DNA of 11,051 nt from NCBI GenBank assembly GCA_902796465.1, contig CADBPK010000014.1, positions 1 to 11,051 of the forward strand. Reading direction: 5' to 3'. Positions 5,598-9,309 of the stretch are shown here, piece after piece. Origin of the DNA: an uncultured Erysipelotrichaceae bacterium (GTDB lineage Bacteria; Bacillota_I; Bacilli_A; Erysipelotrichales; Erysipelotrichaceae). Under the pieces are notes generated by a model. That model ran no database searches. It had not been told where the DNA came from and saw only the letters and a list, made by a program, of their open reading frames with translations. Both the position numbers and the translations under genes were made by a program. Within the stretch, counting starts at the first letter, position 1. The number at the start of each line of letters is the position of its first letter.

Positions 5598-5611
5598 CGA
5601 AAGGAATGAGA

Positions 5612-6916
5612 ATGGAGTATTACTTCATTGGCATAAAAGGAACCGGCATGGCCTCCCTTGCCTGCATGCTGAGCGATCTCGGCTATGCGGTAAGCGGCAG
5701 TGATCTGGAAAAACACTTCTTTACGGAAGATGTTTTAAAAGACCGCGGCATACCGGTTTTTTCATTTAATACAGCCAATATCAAAGATCACATGCACGTG
5801 ATCATAGGAAACGCATTTCTGGAAGATTTTCCGGAAGTGATCGCAGCCCGCAGCAATCCTACCTGCGTATGCGAAAGATACCACGAATTTTTAGGCAGAT
5901 TCCTGAAGGATTATGAACTGATCAGCATCGCCGGAAGCCATGGCAAGACTACGACGACCGGCATGGCCGCCAGCATGATGGCCGCATATGCCGAGACCGG
6001 TTATCTGATCGGGGACGGGACAGGCCACCTGACAAAGGACGCGAAATACTTCTGTCTCGAATCCGATGAATTCCGCCGTCATTTCCTGGCATATCATCCC
6101 AAATATGCCATCGTGACCAATGTCGATATCGACCACGTTGACTATTTCAAGGATGATGCGGATTACCGCCTTGCCTACGAACAGTTTGCGGAAAACGTGA
6201 CCGGCGCCCTGATCATCTGGGGTGAAGATGCGGAAGCGCGCAAGCTGAAGATCGATCAGAAAGTATACTGGTACGGCGAAAAGGAAAATGATGATTTCCG
6301 GGCGTTGAACATCGATGAGCGTTCGGACGGTATGGATTTCGATGTGCTGTTCGAAGGAAAGAATATGGGACACTTCTCACTGCCGTTTGTCGGGCATCAT
6401 CTCCTGCTGAATTCACTGGCCGTGATCGCGGTTGGTATTCTGGAAGGCATACCTGCGGAAACGATCGAGAAGGGGCTATCCGCATTCCGCGGCGTCAAGC
6501 GGCGCTTCGTTGTGGAGGAAGCCGGCGATAACATCTATGTCGATGACTACGCGCATCATCCGACCGAAGTCGGCGTGACCATCGATACCGCAAGGAAGCG
6601 GTTCCCGGGCAGAAAGCTTGTGGCGATCTTCAAGCCGCACAGGGCTTCCCGCGTACTGTATTTCGCGGATGATTTCGCCGCCCAGCTGTCCAAGGCGGAC
6701 GAGATCTATCTCTGTGATTTCACGAGTATAGATGACAAGCAGGATGGTACGGATATCGATATCACATATCTGCAGAAGAAGCTTCCGGGCAGTAAGGTTC
6801 TGAGCGAAGATGAGGCCGGTGCCACGCTTCTTGCAAAGGAATCTCCGGCGGTATTCCTGTTCATGTCGAGCAAGGATATCTACGGACTGGCAGAACTGGT
6901 TAAACGTTTTCAATAG
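5612..6916 (+). CDS. murC: UDP-N-acetylmuramate--L-alanine ligase
   Basis: A 434-residue cytoplasmic Mur ligase that uses ATP to add L-alanine to UDP-MurNAc, the first step of the peptidoglycan stem peptide. The N-terminal Rossmann domain begins with GIKGTGM. The central domain has the ATP loop GSHGKTTTTG (108-117) and VTNVDIDHVDYF. The C-terminal domain has DDYAHHPTEV (D311, D312, H315, H316) and KPHRASR. Length and pattern match Bacillus MurC. The alternative, the recycling ligase Mpl, is less likely. I chose the ATG at 5612 because AAAGGA (5600-5605) is 6 nt upstream of it, while the in-frame ATG at 5606 directly abuts that site. Downstream are DUF948-like, helical and CcpA genes, as in Bacillus. 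The TAG stop lies in the loop region of the terminator hairpin. Confidence 0.96.
   Translation: MEYYFIGIKGTGMASLACMLSDLGYAVSGSDLEKHFFTEDVLKDRGIPVFSFNTANIKDHMHVIIGNAFLEDFPEVIAARSNPTCVCERYHEFLGRFLKDYELISIAGSHGKTTTTGMAASMMAAYAETGYLIGDGTGHLTKDAKYFCLESDEFRRHFLAYHPKYAIVTNVDIDHVDYFKDDADYRLAYEQFAENVTGALIIWGEDAEARKLKIDQKVYWYGEKENDDFRALNIDERSDGMDFDVLFEGKNMGHFSLPFVGHHLLLNSLAVIAVGILEGIPAETIEKGLSAFRGVKRRFVVEEAGDNIYVDDYAHHPTEVGVTIDTARKRFPGRKLVAIFKPHRASRVLYFADDFAAQLSKADEIYLCDFTSIDDKQDGTDIDITYLQKKLPGSKVLSEDEAGATLLAKESPAVFLFMSSKDIYGLAELVKRFQ
6899..6912 (+). promoter_or_regulatory. Second cre-like site, upstream copy
   Basis: GTTAAACGTTTTCA matches 12 of 14 positions of the catabolite-response element consensus TGWAARCGYTWWCA. 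Its centre is 21 bp, two helical turns, from the centre of the perfect site at 6920-6933. It lies in the last codons of murC, so coding constraint could also explain part of the match. Confidence 0.45.
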
Positions 6917-6937
6917 TATTGAAAACGTTTTCATTTT
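6902..6937 (+). terminator. Terminator hairpin of murC, built from two cre-like sites
   Basis: AAACGTTTTCAAT (6902-6914) pairs perfectly over 13 bp with ATTGAAAACGTTT (6918-6930) around an AGT loop, followed by TCATTTTG. The stem is A/T-rich and the T-tract is interrupted, so strength is uncertain. The same bases hold operator sites and the -35 of the next promoter. Confidence 0.6.
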
Positions 6938-6947
6938 GAATTACAAT
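6919..6947 (+). promoter_or_regulatory. Promoter of the ytxG-like / ytxH-like / ccpA operon
   Basis: TTGAAA (-35, 6919-6924) and TACAAT (-10, 6942-6947) each match consensus at 5 of 6 positions and are separated by exactly 17 bp. Predicted start is near 6954, with AAGGAG (6959-6964) just after it. Confidence 0.75.
6920..6933 (+). promoter_or_regulatory. Perfect cre operator (CcpA-type)
   Basis: TGAAAACGTTTTCA is a fully symmetric 14-bp palindrome that matches the catabolite-response element consensus at every position. It overlaps five bases of the -35 and the start of the spacer of the promoter for the operon encoding the CcpA-type regulator, so a bound protein would be expected to block RNA polymerase. 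Confidence 0.75.
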
Positions 6948-6973
6948 GAACTTATCTGAAGGAGAAAATGTTT

Positions 6974-7339
6974 ATGGATGCTCTATTATTGGCACTACAG
7001 GATGTATGCCGGCAGCTGCTGCCTATCATCGGTGCAGTAGTTCTGATCTTTTTATGTATTTTATTGAAGAAGGTATGGAAGCTGATCGATTCCCTGACGG
7101 ATACAGTCAGAAAACTCGATCCGACGCTCCGGCTGGTCGATAAGAGCATAGAAAAAGTACAGGCTCCTCTGGACACTGTTGTCAGATATTCCAAGAGCAT
7201 GGACAACATGCATGGCAAGACATCTGAAGCTTTAGGGAAAGCCGCGGAATTCGCGTCAGAGAATGTCGACCAGATCAAGAGCTTTGTACAGGACAAAATT
7301 GCCGGAAAGAGCGAGGAAGTGAAGGAGGAGGAAGCATAA
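6974..7339 (+). CDS. DUF948 / YtxG-like membrane-anchored protein
   Basis: A 121-residue protein with one N-terminal membrane segment (about residues 15-31, LLPIIGAVVLIFLCILL). A long amphipathic helical region follows, with spaced LxxVDxSIxKVxxPLDTV-type heptads, and then a charged tail. This is the layout of DUF948 proteins such as B. subtilis YtxG, whose molecular role I do not know, and the gene sits after murC as ytxG does. I prefer the ATG at 6974 because it is 9 nt from AAGGAG; the in-frame ATG at 6968 is only 3 nt away and would add two residues. The C-terminal segment LGKAAEFASENVDQIKSF resembles the repeat unit of the next protein. That protein starts 1 nt after this stop, which suggests tight coupling and perhaps a physical partnership. 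Confidence 0.8.
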   Translation: MDALLLALQDVCRQLLPIIGAVVLIFLCILLKKVWKLIDSLTDTVRKLDPTLRLVDKSIEKVQAPLDTVVRYSKSMDNMHGKTSEALGKAAEFASENVDQIKSFVQDKIAGKSEEVKEEEA

Positions 7340-7340
7340 T

Positions 7341-8045
7341 ATGACAGAAAATAAAGAAAAAGAGATCCTTGAAGAACAGCCGTTTGAAGACGGAAAAGAA
7401 CCCATCGATTCCATAGAGAAGACAGTTGAAGACCTGCGCAAGCGTATCCAGGCCCTGGATAAGGCTGATGAAGCAGAAGAAGAGGAAGAATTCGATATTC
7501 CTGAATTCATCCAGGCAGCTGGAGAAGACGCTGAAGAAGCAAAGGAAGACATCGAAGAAGCTGCGGATGAAGCTGCGGATAGTCTGGAAGAAAAGGCTGA
7601 GGAATTCGCTGAAAAGAACGAGGAAAAGGCTGAAGAAGCAGATGATGCACTGCAGAAGACAGTCGCCTATGTAAAGGAAAATGCCATGAAGGCAGCTGAC
7701 TATGCACAGGACAAATTTGATGAGATCAAGAGCAATCCGAAAGTCCAGGAAACACTGAACAATGTCAGCGCGACAGCCGGCAATATGATGAAGAAGGCGG
7801 ATGAATTCACCGACAAGTTCATCGATGATGAAAAGAAGGCAGAACTGAAGGAAAAATTCGACAAGACAGCCAAGGTTGTGGATGAGAATGTCCGCAAGGC
7901 AGCTGATTTTGCCCAGGATAAATTTGAGGAGTTCAAAAACAATCCGAAGGTACAGGAAACACTTGAACAGGCTAAGAATACCGCTGCAGATCTGGCAAGC
8001 AAAGGAACAGAAGCATTCAAGAGCTTATTCAAGAAAAAAGACTGA
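7341..8045 (+). CDS. Acidic helical protein with 69-residue repeat (ytxH position)
   Basis: A 234-residue, almost entirely helical protein rich in Glu, Ala and Lys. The first 100 residues are strongly acidic coiled coil. The second half contains two copies of KAAD(Y/F)AQDKF, each continuing to NPKVQETL, at residues 117-139 and 186-208. Their spacing is exactly 69 residues, and 19 of 23 residues are identical within the core. The pattern resembles apolipoprotein or LEA-type amphipathic repeats. The gene holds the place of ytxH but lacks the glycine-rich membrane segment I recall in YtxH proteins, so I name it by position only. It ends FKSLFKKKD. GGAGG lies upstream in the end of the previous gene. 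It is probably co-transcribed with the DUF948-like gene and ccpA. A stress or envelope role is only a guess. Confidence 0.75.
   Translation: MTENKEKEILEEQPFEDGKEPIDSIEKTVEDLRKRIQALDKADEAEEEEEFDIPEFIQAAGEDAEEAKEDIEEAADEAADSLEEKAEEFAEKNEEKAEEADDALQKTVAYVKENAMKAADYAQDKFDEIKSNPKVQETLNNVSATAGNMMKKADEFTDKFIDDEKKAELKEKFDKTAKVVDENVRKAADFAQDKFEEFKNNPKVQETLEQAKNTAADLASKGTEAFKSLFKKKD
7641..8012 (+). repeat. Tandem 207-bp internal duplication in the helical protein gene
   Basis: The two units have a period of 207 nt (69 codons). In the 69-nt core (7689-7757 against 7896-7964) I count 11 differences, about 84% identity, mostly at third positions. Similarity fades outside the core, so the outer borders given are approximate. 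Confidence 0.7.
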
Positions 8046-8060
8046 CCCCCGGAGTGAATC

Positions 8061-9053
8061 ATGAAAAGAGTAACGATTTATGACGTTGCCAAGGAAGCGG
8101 GAGTCTCGTTAGCTACGGTTTCACGCGTAATCAACGGATCCAATATTGTCAAGCAGCCGACAAAGGAACGTGTCCAGCAGGCGATCGACAAGCTCGGATA
8201 CAAGCCGAACGCGATCGCGCAGGGGCTTGCCCTGCAGAAGACCACGACCATCGGCCTGGTCATTCCGGAAGCGAGCTTTACCTATACCGGACAGATCATC
8301 AACGGTCTGATCGATGTGGCAAAGATCTATAATTACAACATTATGCTGCATACGATCACAGAGGGCATTACGGATATCGCATCGGTGATCGAAGAGATCA
8401 TCAAGTCGCACGTTGACGGCGTGATCATGTATAACGAAAAGCTCCTGGCTCCGGAGATGGAGACCCTGAGCAATTACAATATTCCGATCGTTCTGATCGG
8501 CAATCATATCAAAGGCGAAAATGTCTGCAGTGTATATGTTGATGTAGAAAAGGCGATCTTTGAGCTGACGACCAAATATCTCGAAGAGGGCAAGGACAAC
8601 ATTGCCATCATCGAAGACCGCAAGAACCACTACGCCTGCAGGCAGATGGTCAACGGCGCATCCCGCGCATTCAAGGCAAAAGGAAAAGAATTCAACGGTT
8701 ATCTGCCGATCCCGCAGGAAATGCGTACAAGTTATGCGTTCCTGAAAAAATGGCTGAAGGATCACCGCTATGATCTGATGATCGGCAACCGTGATTCCCA
8801 GGCTATGGCAGTTGTCAACGCGGCCAGGGAGAACGGACTCAATATCCCGGATGACATGGAAGTGGTATGCTTCATCGATACGAAGTACAATTCCATGATG
8901 CGTCCGCAGATCTCCAGTTTCTCCATTCCTTCCTATGATCTGGGAGCTGTTTCCATGCGTGTCATGACCAAGCTCCTGCAGAATGAAGTGGAGAATGAGA
9001 GCGAGATCGAGCTGAGTTATCTGTTCACACCGCGTCAGACAACTAAAGATTGA
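8061..9053 (+). CDS. ccpA: LacI-family regulator, CcpA type (catabolite control protein A)
   Basis: A 330-residue global regulator of carbon metabolism that binds cre sites, in known species together with HPr(Ser-P). The N-terminal helix-turn-helix is VTIYDVAKEAGVSLATVSRV (4-23). The hinge helix PNAIAQGLA (49-57) carries the minor-groove leucine L56, followed by KTTTIGLVIP. The two-lobed periplasmic-binding-like core runs from about 62 to 325. YDLGAVSMR (292-300) matches B. subtilis CcpA YDIGAVAMR with a 3-residue offset; this segment is part of the known HPr-contact surface. RPQISS and the end TPRQTTKD also fit. GGAG is 6 nt before the ATG, and the preceding gene ends 15 nt upstream. Q54 replaces the arginine usual in ARGLA, and L17 replaces methionine. 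Synteny with murC and tyrS and the perfect cre in the operon promoter support CcpA over a local sugar repressor. Confidence 0.88.
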   Translation: MKRVTIYDVAKEAGVSLATVSRVINGSNIVKQPTKERVQQAIDKLGYKPNAIAQGLALQKTTTIGLVIPEASFTYTGQIINGLIDVAKIYNYNIMLHTITEGITDIASVIEEIIKSHVDGVIMYNEKLLAPEMETLSNYNIPIVLIGNHIKGENVCSVYVDVEKAIFELTTKYLEEGKDNIAIIEDRKNHYACRQMVNGASRAFKAKGKEFNGYLPIPQEMRTSYAFLKKWLKDHRYDLMIGNRDSQAMAVVNAARENGLNIPDDMEVVCFIDTKYNSMMRPQISSFSIPSYDLGAVSMRVMTKLLQNEVENESEIELSYLFTPRQTTKD

Positions 9054-9077: not shown

Positions 9078-9083
9078 CAGAAA

Positions 9084-9309
9084 AGCGATGAAGGGGAAGA
9101 GTAATCTGTGACGATTCGCACAAGAGACGCCTCGGCCGGTGAAAGAGGACGATGACGCACAGCTGAATACACCCCGGAGCCTCCTGTCTCAAAAGGCAGG
9201 ACGTGTGCGCCTGCGTTAAAGGCATAGAGATGAGTGCACCGGAAACGGTGAACTAAGGTGGTACCGCGCGAATACAGCGTCCTTAGATATAAAAAAAAGG
9301 ACGCTTTTT
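9084..9309 (+). promoter_or_regulatory. Tyrosine-specific T-box riboswitch leader of tyrS
   Basis: Stem I is visible: GGGG (9093-9096) pairs with CCCC (9172-9175), and CTGTG (9106-9110) with CACAG (9158-9162). Between them is the specifier loop, with AGTA on the left and GAATACA on the right. The specifier codon is TAC (Tyr) at 9168-9170. A small stem III is CCTGTC/GGCAGG (9183-9188, 9195-9200). The conserved T-box core AAGGTGGTACCGCG is at 9255-9268; its TGGT bulge would pair with a tRNA ending ACCA, which fits the A discriminator of tRNA-Tyr. Antiterminator arms CTAAGG (9253-9258) and CCTTAG (9281-9286) compete with the terminator. Uncharged tRNA-Tyr should allow readthrough into tyrS. Confidence 0.95.
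9276..9309 (+). terminator. Regulated intrinsic terminator of the T-box
   Basis: AGCGTCCTT (9276-9284) pairs with AAGGACGCT (9297-9305), followed by a T-run. Its 5' arm shares CCTT with the antiterminator. It is also the only terminator I see downstream of ccpA. Confidence 0.9.

Follow-up and report, generated by a model that had tools for sequence, protein, structure and literature searches.

The promoter of the ytxG-ytxH-ccpA operon in an Erysipelotrichaceae genome has a pair of operator-like sites set at a fixed distance, with their centers 21 bp apart, and this arrangement, as read from the DNA, suggests that the catabolite regulator CcpA controls its own production. The best reading of the promoter is that the upstream site is a cre and that the downstream site is an operator overlapping the -35 hexamer, with the latter's usual binder being either CcpA or another regulator.

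The ytxG-ytxH-ccpA Locus and Its Promoter

The window (the whole stretch of 11,051 nucleotides analyzed here) corresponds to contig C14 in a draft assembly of 2.0 Mb from the same genus as Lactimicrobium massiliense. The genes and sites from murC to ccpA lie on its forward strand, and the gene order is murC, a ytxG-like gene, a ytxH-like gene, ccpA, a T-box leader and tyrS. The murC gene occupies 5606–6916 (TIGR01082, 338.7 bits against a cut-off of 335.1) and is followed by the operon's first gene, the ytxG-like open reading frame (ORF) at 6968–7339 (start possibly at 6974), the ytxH-like ORF at 7341–8045, and the gene for a CcpA-like regulator of the LacI family at 8061–9053. The ytxG and ytxH names presumably apply, being taken from the gene order of Bacillus subtilis; a family-model scan of the two products returned zero matches. 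The T-box leader ahead of tyrS spans 9079–9287 (Rfam RF00230, 118.5 bits), and a promoter-like TTGACA-16-TACAAT match begins at 9050, at the ccpA stop codon.

A consensus scan placed the -35 hexamer TTGAAA at 6919–6924 and the -10 hexamer TACAAT (TATAAT in most relatives) at 6942–6947, with a spacer of 17 nt between them. Site 2, the palindrome TGAAAACGTTTTCA, lies over the -35 and the spacer at 6920–6933 with zero mismatches, in agreement with a preliminary description of the window that had recognized a perfect cre palindrome overlapping a TTGAAA-17-TACAAT promoter. Site 1, the cre-like sequence GTTAAACGTTTTCA at 6899–6912, overlaps the final codons of murC. The same description had called it a 12/14 cre match exactly 21 bp upstream; the spacing is correct, but the site matches the perfect palindrome at 11 of 14 positions (three mismatches) and, by our own count, reaches 12/14 only against the degenerate cre consensus TGWAANCGNTNWCA, as printed in PMC10269683. 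Both sites in this genome read as cre. The only exact copy of TGAAAACGTTTTCA in the assembly is site 2 itself, and its two one-mismatch copies lie 331 bp and 75 bp 5′ of the genes for an SBP_bac_3 protein and an amino-acid kinase, respectively. Since 19 of 200 shuffles of the window gave at least two palindrome matches at no more than three mismatches, it is the relatives, and not the window sequence, that lend weight to the pair, and a chance origin is ruled out by family conservation.

The product of the gene at 8061 is CcpA-like by its best PDB matches, as had been proposed. Six full-length CcpA sequences scored 178–209 bits against 93 bits for the best non-CcpA chain, placing the protein nearer to CcpA than to other LacI-family regulators. 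TIGR01481 was the top-scoring NCBIfam model at 258 bits, short of its equivalog cut-off of 442 bits. The YDxGAVxMRxxTK motif, whose residues we take to contact HPr-Ser46-P, is present as YDLGAVSMRVMTK, aligned to YDIGAVAMRLLTK of the CcpA structures. The genome also encodes an HPr kinase, above the model cut-off, and an HPr with a Ser-46 motif, in which GLHARP and KSIMGV are present.

Conservation of the Two Sites

Relatives were sampled through 80 named ccpA loci, of which 77 had an upstream match to a ytxG model, and each of these 77 yielded a promoter. Together with this genome they made 78 blocks, reduced to 56 by dereplication at 90% identity. The named close relatives are all Erysipelotrichaceae and include metagenome-assembled genomes (MAGs) from rumen and gut that are labelled Solobacterium or uncultured Erysipelotrichaceae, L. 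massiliense, Holdemania and an Erysipelothrix sp. MAG. Three loci with an unmatched ytxG model (L164, L187 and L189) and one truncated locus (L190) were left out before counting, and within the genus set of 36 genomes a promoter was obtained from all except G001, G009 and G015. The alignment was anchored on a TTGAAA-like -35 plus the -10, so that those columns are conserved by construction, while neither site 1 nor the right half of site 2 served as an anchor. The site 1 score weights a central CG, and the CG count was repeated with the center unscored.

The consensus of the 56 promoters is.a..t.GTaAAgcGcTatCAtaa.TaTTGAAAAt.TTTTCAT, in which the left end of site 1 is GT and not TG. Of these promoters, 50 have a clear site 1, 52 match the right half of site 2 at 5/6 or better, and 46 have both sites clear. 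Among these two-site promoters the spacing is exactly 21 bp in 30, the distance from the site 1 center to the start of TTTTCA is 22.5 in 36, and that from the start of TTTTCA to the -10 is 14 in 39. The TTGAAA is shifted one base away from site 1, with TTTTCA in register, in 6/46, and the half-sites of site 2 are one base closer in 9/46 and one base further apart in 1/46. One clear site is lacking in 10/56 promoters: L160, L174 and likewise L147 keep site 1 and have lost most of the right half of site 2, and seven others have an unclear site. A central CG occurs in 44 of 50 copies of site 1 (43 of 50 with the center unscored) versus 2 of 52 copies of site 2, namely those of this genome and L175. 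By this measure site 1 is an ordinary cre, which site 2 usually is not.

The position of site 1 invites the explanation that it is a by-product of conserved C-terminal codons of murC. The end of murC falls inside the -35 or no more than 20 bases from it in 21 of the 56 promoters, and in 14 of these (L152, L175, L177, L194 and ten others) the TGA stop of MurC lies within the -35 TTGAAA; where such promoters have site 1, the core of the site encodes the C-terminal residues of MurC, often K-R-Y-Q or K-R-Y-H. Against this, site 1 is clear in 31 of the 35 promoters that have no murC overlap or in which murC was not located, much as it is in 19 of the 21 with overlap, and the background rate is 143 of 2086 stretches. 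Because the site is similarly frequent with and without the overlap and exceeds background, it is retained in its own right, and the codon artefact was rejected as having a negligible chance of being correct. The alignment of relatives proposed in the preliminary description has thereby been carried out, with both sites and the 21-bp spacing proving to be conserved across the family to a degree that murC coding does not account for.

Pattern searches added a narrower view. A strict two-site pattern matched 7 of 40 genus genomes, once each and with zero control matches, and all seven matches precede ytxG-ytxH-ccpA; the pattern misses most genuine promoters, including that of this genome, and so says little on exclusiveness. 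A two-site pattern allowing one mismatch, applied to 60 relatives, proved too loose to inform, with matches scattered over all 60 genomes and in the controls too. In a sister family (f2; 20 genomes fetched out of 24 sampled), 20 loci have a similar gene order, with a ytxG model match before ccpA in 20/20, and the site pair was absent by pattern search; in this reading the ytxG start had been set wrongly in three loci (L124, L127 and L136), of which L127 alone was re-read. Two of the 20 sister-family promoters have a CG-centered TTGAAAGCGCTT or TGAAAGCGCTT at the -35, and in L122 of the same family TGAAAATATTTTCA lies about 1.4 kb 5′ of ytxG.

The Inter-Site Hairpin

Sites 1 and 2 can pair as a 13-bp hairpin at 6902–6930 on the forward strand, which had been described as the pairing of two inverted copies that ends murC, acting as operator in DNA and terminator in RNA. 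The hairpin is indeed present, yet the inverted relation is automatic for any two copies of a palindrome, and only three inner pairs go beyond it. Favoring a terminator, besides the 13-bp stem itself, is the predicted folding of the stretch at -15.2 kcal/mol (71 nt) or -12 kcal/mol (51 nt), with a z of about -3. On the other side, the stem has only three G-C pairs and the U tract is broken (TCATTTTGAA), such that the hairpin at 6902–6930 lacks the G+C-rich stem, U run and conservation of an intrinsic terminator; a scan for terminator-like structures found 13 sites versus 10.9 expected by chance. An inter-site stem of at least 9 occurs in only 2 of the 56 promoters (this genome and L188), the mean longest stem is 5.68 versus 5.76 with partners shuffled, and in most relatives site 1 is of the AAGCGCT type, which is unable to pair with site 2. 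Because the hairpin is not conserved, the dual role of operator and terminator is unsupported; termination was rejected as a conserved function, and it is very improbable that this structure ends murC transcription. The hairpin is thus probably no terminator, and a lineage-specific role may exist in this genome alone.

Matches to the Two Motifs across the Genus

Across the 40 genus genomes, the cre pattern WAAGCGCTWWCA gave 179 matches versus 47 for its reversed control, and the site 2 palindrome TTGAAAANNTTTTCA gave 68 versus 7, with the ccpA promoters included. Away from ccpA, 42 palindrome loci and 48 cre loci were annotated, a subset of the matches picked by fetch outcome and convenience and comprising, for cre, all remaining matches of G033 and most of those of G061 and G002. 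Twelve of the 48 cre loci lie beside PTS, sugar-uptake, glycosidase, PfkB, Pta or related genes, four beside amino-acid genes, and the rest beside neither. Among 34 proteins scanned next to the palindrome, eight were SBP_bac_3, while GlnA, glutamate dehydrogenase (GDH), a Na:Ala symporter, an aminotransferase, a PepC-type peptidase, an Orn/Arg decarboxylase and IGPS appeared once each. The commonest recognizable neighbors are sugar genes for cre and amino-acid or nitrogen genes for the palindrome. Counted by site, the carbon-to-nitrogen ratio is 12:4 for cre versus 1:15 for the palindrome (Fisher p 0.0002), and with orthologues collapsed it is 11:4 versus 1:10 (p 0.002), where the gene classes were set by eye after viewing the matches and the sites of neither class (tRNA synthetases, nucleotide genes, ankyrin and others) were excluded.

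Several individual loci recur. The sequence TTGAAAAnnTTTTCA lies about 170–325 bp 5′ of SBP_bac_3 genes, encoding the binding protein of an amino-acid ABC transporter, in L002 (this genome), L095, L096, L097, L100, L121, L236 and L241, and about 300 bp 5′ of a gene for a small ankyrin-repeat protein in four genomes (L118, L120, L244 and L248). The loci L079, L080 and L082 each have a permease gene and a divergently oriented gene that matches no family, with a cre-type AGCGCT site between the two; the permease is Xan_ur_permease in L079, and the copies of L080 and L082 were scanned only as a pool.

The nitrogen-type gene set recalls that of CodY, whose operators are AATTTTCWGAAAATT and share TTTTC and GAAAA half-sites with the palindrome. 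The half-site order is opposite here, however, and the CodY family PF06018 was found in 0 of the 40 genus genomes, including this one, with PF08222 detected in 1 of 40 and below its cut-off. As far as these two family models can tell, CodY as the binder of site 2 is unsupported.

Models of ccpA Control

Autoregulation of CcpA through two operators 21 bp apart at the ytxG-ytxH-ccpA promoter is the reading toward which we lean, and we consider it reasonably probable. The promoter at 6919–6947 would drive the operon, with the operators set about two helical turns apart. Site 1, centered at about -48 from the predicted start, would be a cre for the complex of CcpA with HPr-Ser-P, while site 2, centered at about -27, would cover the -35 and the spacer, such that its occupation by a protein would be expected to block RNA polymerase. 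CcpA in its active form would then bind its own promoter and keep its own synthesis in check. The perfect cre at site 2 of this genome would allow two dimers to sit side by side, with repression exerted through site 2 and either a cooperative or an activating role for site 1; a second regulator may act on site 2 in the majority of relatives. Binding, cooperativity, repression, side-by-side occupancy and a transcription start near 6954 are all inferred.

Comparable circuits exist elsewhere. In some lactobacilli, staphylococci and streptococci, ccpA is autoregulated by carbon catabolite control via CcpA and cre, and the locus described here likewise combines a ccpA promoter bearing a cre with the presence of HPr kinase and HPr. 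It differs in having two sites at a family-conserved 21-bp spacing, one often within the end of murC and the second usually without a CG core. A 2018 study of Clostridium acetobutylicum reportedly described two-way ccpA autoregulation by dual cre sites, with one cre at the promoter and the other inside the coding region; two CcpA sites are predicted to govern ccpA here also, but a single promoter holds the two within 35 bp. In B. subtilis, the repressing cre boxes of high affinity are concentrated at several positions, -27 being one of them, which matches the placement of site 2, and cre boxes upstream of the -35 tend to activate, with exceptions (PMC3463425). These positions are why we favor autoregulation with repression through site 2 in this genome, and the activating tendency of upstream cre boxes leaves the net regulatory sign uncertain.

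Several observations count against this model. A central CG in only 2/52 copies of site 2, together with variable half-site spacing, is unusual for a cre; LacI-family palindromes of even length usually center on CG, a minority being different or degenerate (PMC4052901). The flexible cre-var sites bound by CcpA (TGTAAA-spacer-TTTACA; PMC5263246) resemble site 2 in having palindromic half-sites, variable spacing and no requirement for CG, although the half-site here is TGAAAA/TTTTCA and the spacing varies by a single base. Also weighing against the model are the predominance of nitrogen genes near the palindrome elsewhere, the GT left end of site 1, the missed TIGR01481 cut-off, and the relatives noted above (L160, L174, L147 and the seven others) in which site 2 is largely lost or a site is unclear.

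In another reading, two regulators would share the promoter, with CcpA on site 1 and a candidate amino-acid or nitrogen regulator on the TGAAAAnnTTTTCA palindrome over the -35; the output of ccpA would then join carbon and nitrogen signals, and the CG center in this genome would be incidental. The excess of the palindrome over its reversed control in the genus (68 versus 7, ccpA promoters counted), its mostly amino-acid or nitrogen neighbors (1:15 versus 12:4 for cre, p 0.0002), the disparity in central CG between the two sites and the lack of PF06018 in the 40 genomes all speak for this arrangement, to which we give a substantial chance while leaning against it. CcpA also controls some nitrogen genes in other organisms, which weakens the argument, as do the post hoc assignment of classes by eye and the placing of neither-class sites outside the test. 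Moreover, the second regulator is hypothetical, and the CG-centered TTGAAAGCGCTT at the -35 in 2/20 sister-family promoters hints that this position was originally a CcpA site. A related and slightly more tentative proposal makes the ccpA promoter a meeting point of carbon and nitrogen control, with a cre locked two helical turns from the operator of a candidate global amino-acid regulator (motif TTGAAAAnnTTTTCA) that stands in for CodY in the genus; in this genome, the central CG would turn that operator into a perfect cre, for which both regulators may compete.

It is also conceivable that autoregulation works in both directions, with CcpA activating from upstream site 1 and repressing from the -35-overlapping site 2, such that its level is held within a range. 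The reported dual-cre circuit of C. acetobutylicum offers a precedent, and the activating tendency of B. subtilis cre boxes upstream of the -35, exceptions aside, is in keeping with it (PMC3463425). Nevertheless, a center at about -48 is not an established activating position and site 2 is without CG in most relatives, and we regard this version as unlikely.

Significance

Searched by title, the literature yielded no study of CcpA control or catabolite repression in Erysipelotrichaceae and no paper on control of a ytxH-ccpA operon. The two sites represent a predicted feedback arrangement, conserved in a gut family, for its main catabolite regulator, in which an operator is retained within the final codons of a cell-wall gene. 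The palindrome, in turn, is possibly an undescribed motif of nitrogen genes in genomes without a detectable CodY.
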